Source of the DNA: Desulfocurvibacter africanus subsp. africanus DSM 2603
GTDB taxonomy: Bacteria; Desulfobacterota; Desulfovibrionia; Desulfovibrionales; Desulfovibrionaceae
Direction of reading: 5' to 3'
Assembly: GCF_000422545.1 (NCBI RefSeq)
Contig: NZ_AULZ01000015.1
Span: forward strand, 1-64,000
Length of the DNA stretch: 64,000 bases
Of the stretch, positions 10,912-32,903 are shown in pieces (position 1 is the first letter of the stretch; every line of letters starts with the position of its first letter). The notes under the pieces are model-generated. The model saw only the letters and a list, made by a program, of their open reading frames with translations. It ran no database searches and was not told the origin of the DNA. Both the position numbers and the translations under genes were made by a program.

Positions 10912-12345
10912 GTGCCCAATCTTTTTCGACTGCTGCCTCCGGTGGATCAGGCCCTGCATCGTTTGGCCGGTGAACCGGAACTGGCCGCCATGCCCCGGCC
11001 GCTGTTGCGCGACCTTGTGAACAAGTTCCTGGATCTGTGCCGCGAGGAGATCAAGGCCGGCGTCATCGCCTCGGAAGAGCAGCTTGTGTCCGATACGTTC
11101 TTCCGGCGCATGACCTGCTTCGTGCGCTCGCAGTCCCGGCCCCATTTCCGGCGCGTGCTCAACGCGACAGGCGTGGTCATCCACACCAATCTCGGGCGCT
11201 CGCTGCTGGCCGAGTCGGCCATCGAGGCCGTGACCGAGGCCTGCCGCAACTATTCGAACCTTGAGTTCAATCTGGATACGGGCAAGCGCGGCAGCCGCTA
11301 CAGCCATGTGGAAGAGCTGCTGTGCCGCCTTACCGGGGCCGAAGCTGCCCTGGTGGTCAACAACAACGCTTCGGCGGTGCTGCTCTGCCTGGAGACGCTG
11401 GCCAAAGGCCGGGAGACCATCGTTTCCCGTGGACAGCTGGTGGAGATCGGCGGCTCGTTCCGCATCCCGGACGTCATGGCCCGCTCGGGCTCCATCCTGG
11501 TGGAGGTCGGGGCCACCAACCGCACCCATCCGCGCGACTATGAGAACGCCATCAACGAGAATACGGCCCTGCTGCTGCGGGTGCACACCTCCAACTACCG
11601 CATGATCGGTTTCACCCTCGAGACCACGGCGGAGGAGTTGGTGGAAATCGGCCGTCGCCGGAACATTCCGGTAATGGAGGACTTGGGCTCGGGTTGCTTC
11701 TTCGACCTGCGGCCCATGGGCTTTCAGTTCGAGCCCATGGTCCAGGACGTGGTGGCCTCGGGCGCGGACGTGGTGACCTTCAGCGGCGACAAGGTCCTGG
11801 GCGGACCCCAGGCCGGCATCATCGTGGGCCGGCGCGAATACATCGAGAAGATCAAGCGCAACCCCATCAACCGGGCCATGCGCATCGACAAGATGACCCT
11901 GGCCGCGTTGGAGGCCACGCTGCGCCTCTATCTGGATCCGGAGCTGGCCCGGCGCGAGATTCCGACCATCGCCATGATCACGGCCGAGCCGGACGAATTG
12001 AAGAAAAAGGCCCAGGCCCTGGCCCGGCTGCTCAAACGCGAATTATCCGGCCGTTTGGACATCGCCACGCGGCCCGGCGTGTCCCGCGTGGGCGGCGGCT
12101 CCTTCCCGGAGCGCGACCTGCCCACCACCGTGGTGACCGTGAAGCCCACGTCCGGCGGCGCCCAAGCCCTGGAGACCCTAAAGTACAATCTGCGCACCGC
12201 CGAGCCGCCACTCATCGGCTACATCGAGGAAGACGCCTTTTGCCTCGACCCGCGCACCCTGAGAAACGACGAATTCCGCCTCGTCTCCGCGTCCCTGGCC
12301 CAGGCCCTGGACATGGCGGGAGACGGGAGCGCCTGCCATAACTGA
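10912..12345 (+). CDS. selA: L-seryl-tRNA(Sec) selenium transferase
   Basis: 477-aa PLP enzyme, close to the usual ~465 aa of SelA. It converts seryl-tRNA(Sec) to selenocysteyl-tRNA(Sec) using selenophosphate. The PLP lysine is Lys294 in FSGDKVLGGPQ. The N-terminal domain (FRLLPPVDQAL) and the segment VIHTNLGRSLL are characteristic. GTG start with AAGGA upstream. It is separated from selB by one aminopeptidase gene. selD and tRNA-Sec were not found in the window. A probable target, the UGA-containing DsrE-like gene at 32583-32903, is 20 kb away. Confidence 0.95.
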   Translation: MPNLFRLLPPVDQALHRLAGEPELAAMPRPLLRDLVNKFLDLCREEIKAGVIASEEQLVSDTFFRRMTCFVRSQSRPHFRRVLNATGVVIHTNLGRSLLAESAIEAVTEACRNYSNLEFNLDTGKRGSRYSHVEELLCRLTGAEAALVVNNNASAVLLCLETLAKGRETIVSRGQLVEIGGSFRIPDVMARSGSILVEVGATNRTHPRDYENAINENTALLLRVHTSNYRMIGFTLETTAEELVEIGRRRNIPVMEDLGSGCFFDLRPMGFQFEPMVQDVVASGADVVTFSGDKVLGGPQAGIIVGRREYIEKIKRNPINRAMRIDKMTLAALEATLRLYLDPELARREIPTIAMITAEPDELKKKAQALARLLKRELSGRLDIATRPGVSRVGGGSFPERDLPTTVVTVKPTSGGAQALETLKYNLRTAEPPLIGYIEEDAFCLDPRTLRNDEFRLVSASLAQALDMAGDGSACHN

Positions 12346-14019: not shown

Positions 14020-15924
14020 ATGCCAATTATCATGGGTACCGCCGGGCATATCGACCACGGCAAGACGAGCCTCGTGCGCGCGCTCACGGGCATCGACTGC
14101 GACCGGCTGGAGGAGGAGAAGCGCCGGGGCATTACCATCGAGCTCGGCTTCGCCTACCTGGACCTGCCGGGCATTGACCGTCTGGGTATCGTGGACGTGC
14201 CGGGCCATGAACGCTTCGTGAAAAACATGGTCGCGGGCGCGGCGGGCATCGACTTCGTCATGCTGGTCATCGCCGCGGACGAGGGCGTCATGCCTCAGAC
14301 CCGCGAGCATCTGGAAATCTGCTCCCTTTTGGGCACGGACACGGGCCTGGTGGCTCTGACCAAGGTGGACATGGTGGACGAGGAAATGCTGGAGCTGGTC
14401 CAGGAGGACATCAGCGAGTTCCTGCAGGGCACCTTCCTCGAAGGCGCGCCGGTCATGCCTGTGTCCTCGCACACGGGCCAGGGCATGGACGCGCTCAAGG
14501 CCAAGCTGGCCGAGATCGCCACGAGCTTCAAGCCCAGGCGGCGCACGGACCTCTTCCGCCTGCCCATTGACCGCATCTTCTCCATGAAGGGCTACGGCAC
14601 GGTCATCACCGGCACGCTTATCGCCGGCGCGGTCGGCGTGGGTCAGGATGTGCTGGTTTATCCGCAGCAGAAGCCCACCAAGGTGCGCACCATCCAGGTC
14701 CATGGCCGCGCGGCCGAAAAGGCCCTGGCCGGGCAGCGCACGGCCGTGAACCTGGCCGGCGTGGAAGTGGAGGAGTTGGAGCGCGGGCAGGTGCTGGCCG
14801 TGCCGGGCTCGCTTTTTCCGTCCCTGACTTGGGACATCGAGTTGACCTTGCTCAAGAGCGCGTCCAAGCCGCTCAAGCACCGCAAGGAAGTGCACTTCCA
14901 TCACGGCAGCCGCGAAGTGCTCGCGCGCGTCTACCTGCTGGACCGCGACCAGCTCATGCCGGGCGAGACCTGCGCCTGCCAGGTGCGCTTCGAGGAACCG
15001 CTCGTGGGCGTATATGGCGACCGCGTGGTGCTGCGCTCCTATTCGCCCCTGCGCACCATCGGCGGCGGCAAGCTCATCAACCCCCTGGGCCGCAAGGTCA
15101 AGCGCCGCTCGGAGCAGGTGCAGGTGCTGTACTCGCTTGCGGGCGGCGAGCCCGAGGCGCTGGCCTTGGGCCAACTGCGTCTGGCCGGACCAGAGGGCCT
15201 GAGCTTCGCACAGCTCGTGACCATGACCAACCTGGAGAGCAAGGCCCTGGAGAAGATGCTGGGGCAGCTCGGCGGCCAGCAGAAGGCCTTCCTGTTCGAC
15301 AAGGATGCGCGCGTGTACGTTTCCGGCGCGCTGCTGGACGAGCTTTGCGCTTCGGCCGCGGCCTTCACGACTGAGTACCACCGCAAGAATCCCCTCAAGC
15401 CGGGCTTGTCACGAAGTGAGCTGGCTTCGGATTGGGGCAAGGGGCTTCCTGCCAAGCTGTTCCACTTCGTTGTGGAACGGCTTTTGAAGAGAGGAGAGCT
15501 GATCGCTGATCAGGAAGTGTTGCGCCTGCCTGGCCACAAGGTTTCACTCGCCTCGGACGAGGCGAAAATGAGGGGCTCCATCCTCGCGGCTTACGAGCAG
15601 GGCGGCATTACGCCACCCAACCTCAAGGACGTGCTCGATCCACTCGGGGTGGATTTCAAGCAGGCCGCGCCGGTGTTCAAGCTCCTGCAGGATCAAGGCG
15701 AATTGCTGAAGATCAAGGAAGACATGTATTTCAGCCGTTCGGCCATGGAGAAGCTCAAGGGCATGATCGTGGGTTTCTTCGAGAAGCAGGAAGAGATGGG
15801 TCCTCCTGATTTCAAGGAACTCACGAGCCTGTCGCGCAAGTACGCCATCCCCGTGCTGGAGTACCTGGACAAGGAAAAGATCACCGTGCGCGTGGGCGAC
15901 AAGCGCCGCTTGCGCAAGAGATAG
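14020..15924 (+). CDS. selB: Selenocysteine-specific translation elongation factor SelB
   Basis: 634-aa GTPase that carries selenocysteyl-tRNA to UGA codons marked by a SECIS hairpin. The N-terminal G domain has [13 protein letters not shown] (G1), RGITIELGF (G2), DVPGHERF (G3) and TKVD (G4). EF-Tu-like domains II and III follow, then a C-terminal series of winged helices from about residue 380 that reads the SECIS (for example [16 protein letters not shown]-type segments near the end). The length agrees with bacterial SelB (610-640 aa). ATG with GGAG upstream. Confidence 0.96.
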
Positions 15925-31565: not shown

Positions 31566-32444
31566 TTGCAAGGCGACAAATGGACAGCGGTCACTGCCCG
31601 CAATGCGCTACCCCTGCTCATATGGTGCGCCAAGAACGGTAGAGCTATCACCTATGGCCGGCTTGATCGGGAGATTGTGAACAGGGGGCTTGGGCATCAT
31701 GTCATGGCTGTTCAGTATGGATATCCTGCGGGAGCAATCGGAGATGCCTTGATCGAAACAGGAGCAGAGTGGGGCGAGCCGATACCGCCTCTCAATGCTC
31801 TAGTAGTCAATGCAAAGGATGGTCTTCCCGGCAGAGGGGTAAATTACTACCTGAGAAGATATTCCAAGTCTGAAAACGTTGACTATATGTCGGAAGACGA
31901 GAAGCGAGCCGTTGTCGACGAGATTCAAGGGGAAATCTTTTCTTATGGCCGCTGGGATGAAATCCTGAAGAAGTATGGCCTGCGGCCTGTCCGAGACGGC
32001 CTAGCAGATGAAGCAGCGGACCATGACGAGATTGCGCCACCGGTGAGAGGGGGTTGGTCTTCCGAGGGGGAGAGCAAGGAACATAAAGCCTTGAAGGATT
32101 TCGTCGCAACAAATCCGCACGTTGTAGGCCTCCCACGCAATTGCAGGAACTGTCGCAAGGAATACCTGTTCGCTACTGGCGATAAAGCGGATGTCGTATT
32201 CGAGACTGAGAACGGATATCTTGGCGTTGAAGTCAAATCCAACATTTCCAATGACGCTGATATCAACCGCGGACTGTTTCAGGCAATAAAGTATCAGGCA
32301 TTGCTCCGGTCTGAGCAAAAGGCGGCACTTTTGCCACCAACAGCACGCGCAGTGCTCGTAACCGAAAGGGACCTCCCTGCTGAATTGCAAAATCTCGCCG
32401 ATATCCTCGGAATATTCGTGTACATAGTATCGGTGAACAGTTGA
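31566..32444 (+). CDS. PD-(D/E)XK-like nuclease-fold protein with an early in-frame stop
   Basis: 292 aa if read from the TTG at 31566. The N-terminal part (residues ~1-110) contains ITYGRLDREIVNRG and PPLNALVVNAKDGLPGRGVN, a winged-helix-like module seen in restriction-type proteins. The C-terminal part (~165-292) has the features of a PD-(D/E)XK core: EHKALKDF (Glu), GDKADVVF (Asp) and YLGVEVKSN (E-x-K). A role in DNA cleavage or defence is an inference. A near-perfect ribosome-binding site (AAGGAG, five bases, ATG at 31548) points to an original start six codons upstream, but codon 5 of that frame is TAA (31560-31562). The gene is either a fresh nonsense mutant or restarts at TTG. GC content is lower than in neighbours. 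Confidence 0.55.
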   Translation: MQGDKWTAVTARNALPLLIWCAKNGRAITYGRLDREIVNRGLGHHVMAVQYGYPAGAIGDALIETGAEWGEPIPPLNALVVNAKDGLPGRGVNYYLRRYSKSENVDYMSEDEKRAVVDEIQGEIFSYGRWDEILKKYGLRPVRDGLADEAADHDEIAPPVRGGWSSEGESKEHKALKDFVATNPHVVGLPRNCRNCRKEYLFATGDKADVVFETENGYLGVEVKSNISNDADINRGLFQAIKYQALLRSEQKAALLPPTARAVLVTERDLPAELQNLADILGIFVYIVSVNS

Positions 32445-32561: not shown

Positions 32562-32582
32562 ATTCACTGGAGGTTATCGGTA

Positions 32583-32903
32583 ATGCAAATACTCATCGTG
32601 CTGTCCAGCCAGGATCCCGAGATCAAATGGAATGCCTTGCGCTTGGGCAATTTCCTGCTCAACGAGGGCGAGGAGGTAACTGTTTTCCTCAATGGCGGGG
32701 CAACCGACCTGCTGGTCGGCGACTGCGAGACATTCCCCATCGCCGAACAGGCCAAGCTGTTCACGCTTTCCGAAGGCGTGTTGGCTGCCTGAGGCAAGTG
32801 CATGGCCCTCCACGGCGTGGAGGAGAACGGACTCATCACTTTGTCCAACATGAAATTTCTTTATGAGCAGGTGCAGAAGGCTGACAAAATACTGAACTAC
32901 TGA
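32583..32903 (+). CDS. DsrE-like selenoprotein (UGA read as selenocysteine at residue 70)
   Basis: 106 aa when the in-frame TGA at 32790-32792 is read as Sec70. The protein starts MQILIVLSSQDPEIKWNALR and has the alpha/beta fold of DsrE/YchN-type small sulfur-relay proteins: a first strand ILIVLSS, the helix after DPEIKWNALRLG, the strand EVTVFLNGG, and then the redox loop EGVLAA-U-GKC at the position where relatives have a Cys. The codons after TGA stay in frame for 36 residues (GKCMALHGVEENGLITLSNM, in part) to a TGA at 32901-32903, giving the normal length of the family. A SECIS-like hairpin follows the TGA. selA and selB lie in the same window. DsrE-like selenoproteins have been described in other deltaproteobacteria. 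Without UGA decoding the product would stop at 69 aa, losing the redox motif. GGAGG precedes the ATG. The alternative is a nonsense mutation; the preserved frame and SECIS argue against it. Confidence 0.85.
32793..32830 (+). promoter_or_regulatory. SECIS-like element of the DsrE-like selenoprotein
   Basis: A 7-bp perfect stem CCTCCAC/GTGGAGG at 32807-32823 closes a GGC loop. The loop begins 21 nt after the UGA, within the 16-37-nt distance of bacterial SECIS elements, and the first two loop bases are G, as SelB requires. Confidence 0.75.

Follow-up and report, generated by a model that had tools for sequence, protein, structure and literature searches.

Comparative sequence analysis indicates that the window (the whole 64,000-nucleotide stretch analysed here, from Desulfocurvibacter africanus subsp. 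africanus DSM 2603) almost certainly contains a gene for a 106-residue protein of the DsrE/YchN family with selenocysteine at residue 70. A DsrE-like selenoprotein with an in-frame UGA and a SECIS hairpin had been proposed from the DNA letters of the window (the original prediction), and this overall reading is supported by the comparison of both the protein and the hairpin among relatives. The features of the locus are as follows:

32570 to 32574, plus strand: probable Shine-Dalgarno sequence GGAGG, inferred by reading the sequence
32583 to 32903, plus strand: DsrE-like selenoprotein gene, 106 aa, Sec as residue 70, stop codon TGA at 32901-32903, recognised by its DsrE domain and its homologues
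32790 to 32792, plus strand: in-frame TGA, predicted to be read as selenocysteine (Sec70, in Sec-Gly-Lys-Cys), with TGA or a Cys codon in homologues and YchN Cys78 aligned to it
32799 to 32801, plus strand: codon of Cys73, the second residue of the UxxC motif, from the translation and kept in most homologues
32807 to 32823, plus strand: bacterial SECIS hairpin CCTCCAC-GGC-GTGGAGG, 7-bp stem, GGC loop, -10.0 kcal/mol, by the bSECIS model

Read from the ATG at 32583, the frame runs through 69 codons to its single internal TGA at 32790-32792 and continues for 36 sense codons to the stop TGA at 32901-32903, in agreement to the base with the frame first proposed (69 residues, the TGA at 32790, 36 codons and a normal stop). 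The motif so read is U70-G-K-C73, and its proposed equivalence to a site of the Cys-x-x-Cys type is consistent with the Cys or Sec found at residue 70 in relatives. The longest mechanical ORF ending at the internal TGA is 114 aa long and starts from TTG 32448; the ATG at 32583 is favoured because GGAGG lies ahead of it and because the homologues have a common N-terminus, beginning at the same Met. A gene caller could therefore also over-extend the N-terminus, so that the expected truncation to 69 aa stands as to the cut before the active site, while the 114-aa ORF from TTG 32448 is a possible outcome as well. No NCBIfam model matched the protein, and the family is for this reason likely to be mis-annotated in many genomes. 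Just upstream, a 292-aa ORF (31566-32444) matched nothing in Pfam, NCBIfam or PADLOC; towards its C-terminus it has the sequence ...VVFETENGYLGVEVKSN..., in which a likeness to a restriction-endonuclease-like motif is seen by eye only. A PADLOC scan of the two unassigned upstream ORFs gave no match.

The interrupted frame recurs among relatives of the gene. Codon 70 is TGA in each of the 12 close relatives from named genomes (58-77% identity), and matches are present in 56 of 199 genomes of the taxonomic family of the window, 66 of 297 of the order and 78 of 395 of the phylum, most of them with exactly one internal TGA. Alignment of 148 homologues across the phylum gave 128 with TGA (Sec) and 20 with Cys (TGC or TGT) at this codon. 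In more than 100 genomes the homologues are collinear over residues 1-106, with similarity continuous on both sides of residue 70; homologues extending past residue 69, and Cys or Sec in relatives at residue 70, were the points on which the original prediction had staked its case. A sequencing error is excluded, as over 100 other genomes carry the same TGA. The family tree contains at least seven changes between the Sec and Cys states, and one Cys copy (L052; CGKC, 56% identical) falls within the Sec clade, next to a Sec-containing copy (SH-aLRT 90%), the arrangement suggesting a probable Sec-to-Cys change.

Further variation was seen around the active site. Cys73 is kept in most homologues, and some Sec copies have Leu, Ser, Ala or Arg instead, keeping Sec and losing the second Cys: UGKL (L131, L138, L135, L139, L128, L132, L136, L137 and others), UQKS (L192-L196), UGKS (L058, L134), UKKA (L148, L175) and UGKR (L110). 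The SECIS stem, too, is present in the UGKL, UQKS, UGKS and UGKR copies, intact but for a single mismatched pair in L139. In two copies (L080 in genome G121 and L079 on contig 55 of genome G132) the N-terminus is apparently frame-shifted or truncated while the TGA and hairpin region are kept, a state that may reflect decay, an assembly end or sequencing error.

The hairpin of the window satisfies all constraints of the published bSECIS model. Its parts (32807-32813, 32814-32816 and 32817-32823) start at a distance of 14 nt from the TGA and its loop at 21 nt, exactly the hairpin sequence and spacing that had been described. Taken from the window sequence alone, it is weak evidence, such a hairpin being expected by chance in about 3% of cases: its folding z-scores against shuffled sequence are ordinary (-0.4 to 0.05), 3.5% of synonymous recodings with the codon usage of the window give as good a stem, and of the 1571 TGA triplets that the window contains, 44 are followed by a 7-bp hairpin at the SECIS spacing. 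A loose SECIS filter is passed by 25 TGA-interrupted frames in the window and is thus weak by itself, and an Rfam search of the window at the gathering threshold returned two tRNAs only. As a hairpin in a single sequence is unconvincing, the proof must be comparative.

For this comparison we used 85 Sec copies of the clade to which the gene belongs, with 77 distinct sequences for the pairing statistics. Six of the seven stem pairs are formed in at least 84 of the 85 copies, and the strongly variable pair, between the first base of codon 76 and the third of codon 80, is formed in 78 of 85 (A-U 43, C-G 29, G-C 5). This pair is at times held where the residues have changed (Thr ACC with Gly GGT, Ala GCC with Gly GGC, Leu CTC with Gly GGG, Phe TTC with Glu GAA) and is also visible in synonymous choice: Asp80 is encoded by GAT where the partner is A (40/40) and by GAC where it is G (4/4), GAC being 2.5 times commoner than GAT elsewhere in the same genes. 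Val79 is GTG in 83 of 83 cases, other GTN codons making up more than half of Val elsewhere in these genes. Across the 77 distinct Sec sequences 98.3% of stem cells are paired, as against 28-54% when the partner is slid by 1-3 nt, and there are 41 two-sided changes, where shuffles, which ignore relatedness, give 12 on average and 19 at most. A tree-based independent-pairs test agrees in direction with the covariation, with too few supported branches for significance. The loop is GGN in all Sec copies compared, matching the published G[G|U] rule. In the 20 Cys homologues, 45% of stem cells pair and none of the hairpins reaches -7.5 kcal/mol or below. By these measures, the hairpin is under selection in the Sec copies and lost in the Cys copies, and it is the covariation at the level of codons that argues for selection on the hairpin. 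This bears directly on the view taken in gene callers' output, that translation really ends at the TGA, leaving a pseudogene or a 69-residue protein followed by a relic frame, a view with which a hairpin within chance expectation, taken alone, would agree. However, decay would not preserve downstream homology and hairpin, whereas the same TGA with full-length homology downstream is found phylum-wide, with selection acting on both protein and hairpin; comparison therefore refutes the true stop, which we regard as extremely improbable.

Genes for the decoding of selenocysteine are encoded in the same genome, two of them within the window:

10912 to 12345, plus strand: selA, L-seryl-tRNA(Sec) selenium transferase (TIGR00474, 620.8 bits against a cut-off of 267.9)
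14020 to 15924, plus strand: selB, selenocysteine-specific elongation factor (TIGR00475, 391.3 bits against a cut-off of 242.25; SelB winged-helix domains)

The two family models thereby confirm the selA and selB assignments made earlier at 10.9-15.9 kb, and a tRNA-Sec with anticodon TCA (86 bits) is found on a further contig of this genome (C15:91515-91604). We suggest that the hairpin 21 nt 3' of the UGA would recruit SelB-GTP with Sec-tRNA(Sec), and that the UGA would then be decoded as Sec with no termination, read-through being inferred. That the UGA is instead read as another residue, such as Trp by suppression, is hardly credible, as no point in its favour was found, relatives without the TGA have Cys and never Trp at codon 70, and selA, selB and tRNA-Sec are present together with a SECIS after the TGA. 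SelB exceeds its cut-off in 167 of the 199 genomes of the taxonomic family, and its co-occurrence with the selenoprotein gene is thus uninformative. In one genome (G008; 4.0 Mb, 3 contigs, 95% complete), SelA and SelB above cut-off and a convincing tRNA-Sec were not found, reflecting either an assembly gap or a recent loss; its copy of the gene (L063) has the TGA, and the SECIS stem is intact.

With Sec read as Cys, the Pfam domain DsrE (PF02635) spans the TGA, covering residues 1-105 (E=4.7e-7, 30.4 bits against a cut-off of 22.7). A profile built from Sec and Cys forms matched the whole length of E. coli YchN (E=2.3e-13), with Sec70 aligned to Cys78 of the YchN CKTC motif (position counted from the printed alignment), and the alignment to DsrE/YchN proteins suggested as a check on the original prediction is thus significant. 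Searches of the PDB with phmmer, using the protein alone, and with a narrow profile gave chance matches only, the broader profile then finding YchN. An AlphaFold model built from eight sequences is of moderate quality (pLDDT 68, pTM 0.69) and is poor at residues 46-72 (pLDDT below 50), so that the active site is not shown by the model and the fold match depends on the remaining residues. Foldseek with this model gave no match below E=0.001. Structure alignment of the Foldseek candidates placed DsrE-family proteins on top (3mc3, Z 8.5; YchN, 8.1; DsrE of DsrEFH, 7.3; TusD, 7.2); however, Rossmann-like folds unrelated to DsrE reach Z 7.7 against the model, and it is therefore the sequence profile, and not the fold, that makes the family assignment firm. 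In every sequence character tested, the gene agrees with the DsrE-like UxxC selenoprotein family.

That family is already on record, and the novelty implied by the original prediction is not borne out. DsrE-like UxxC selenoproteins were described from the Sargasso Sea in 2005 (PMC1088965), in Desulfovibrio vulgaris in 2006 (PMC1794560) and in ocean metagenomes in 2008 (PMC2398784); they are listed in a 2022 review (PMC9312934), and a 2026 review counts them among the high-confidence predictions and notes that, as for most such proteins, their function has not been characterised (PMC13188914). The published proteins have the same PF02635 domain, the UxxC motif, a Desulfovibrio-like host and a Sec codon followed by a bacterial SECIS, and comparison by description revealed no essential difference. 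The gene in the window thus adds a member, correct and ordinary, to a family catalogued since 2005.

Among better known relatives, E. coli YchN (PDB 1jx7) shares with the protein the profile and fold matches given above and the equivalence of its Cys78 to Sec70, but it has Cys in place of Sec and is about 11 residues longer, with insertions across several loops. DsrE of DsrEFH and TusD of TusBCD have the same fold by the model, and their active site is probably at the same position, via the Cys78 numbering common with YchN; Cys78 of DsrE binds and transfers sulfur, and Cys78 of TusD is essential (PMC3397948). DsrEFH and TusBCD, however, are hexamers with DsrF/H or TusB/C and use Cys, whereas the gene studied here stands alone and uses Sec, no DsrF/DsrH or TusB/TusC partner being conserved beside it at about 25 loci. 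DsrE type II of sulfate reducers, with an active Cys67, is encoded together with DsrF, DsrH, TusA and YeeE/YedE (PMC13293266); it resembles the protein in its DsrE fold, its occurrence in sulfate reducers and its single active Cys, differing in its partners, none of which is conserved at the loci examined of either the clade of this gene or a second Sec subfamily. This second, divergent subfamily of Sec-containing DsrE proteins (L056, L152-L187 and others) is widespread in the phylum, with proteins of about 103 aa that read DFYV-U-GVC and have Sec near residue 67. Its assignment to DsrE type II was considered and rejected, its neighbours including no conserved DsrF/DsrH/TusA/YeeE. The neighbours do include an ORF cluster represented by an ArsR-family regulator (11 of 39 loci) and, at three loci, an ArsP-type permease.

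As to function, we see about an even chance that the protein acts as a sulfane-sulfur/thiol relay in which Sec70 handles sulfane sulfur and Cys73 is the resolving residue. By analogy with Cys78 in DsrE and TusD, Sec70 would carry sulfane sulfur or attack a persulfide, and Cys73 would resolve the selenium adduct as an Se-S bond. Genomic context gives no help, as no conserved neighbour gene was found at about 25 loci apart from dispersed paralogues and ORFs that overlap the gene. The main rival to sulfur handling is a thiol/selenol redox role with no sulfur transfer, in which Sec-x-x-Cys would serve as a selenenylsulfide switch or a disulfide reductase. UxxC has been given as a thiol-redox motif for DsrE-like selenoproteins (PMC1088965), Cys73 is conserved in most homologues, and a DsrF/DsrH or TusA-type partner is absent beside the gene, all of which make this role a serious possibility, if one we would back only with reserve. 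Against it, Sec copies of the UGKL, UQKS, UGKS, UKKA and UGKR types lack the second Cys, so that not all members of the family need an Se-S bond within the molecule, and the best-characterised family members transfer sulfur with one Cys (PMC3397948). The binding of a metal or metalloid by Sec70 in a detoxification role, as proposed for other poorly understood selenoproteins, seems improbable: the ArsR-type cluster and ArsP-type permeases that could suggest it belong to the UGVC sister subfamily, and the gene in the window and its own clade are without such neighbours.

The confirmation of a full-length selenoprotein where gene callers cut ahead of the active site is useful for annotation. Returning to the reading as a sulfur relay, the loss of the second Cys in several Sec copies leads us to propose, speculatively and as a rather unlikely extension, that the clade's DsrE proteins, both in Desulfovibrio-like bacteria and across the phylum, may be predominantly Sec sulfur carriers that work with one selenium atom. 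If true, sulfate reducers would possess a sulfur relay that is based on selenium, stands alone and is more extensive than one would judge from the few examples published, and a settled role for these proteins would tell whether selenium serves sulfur trafficking in sulfate reducers.
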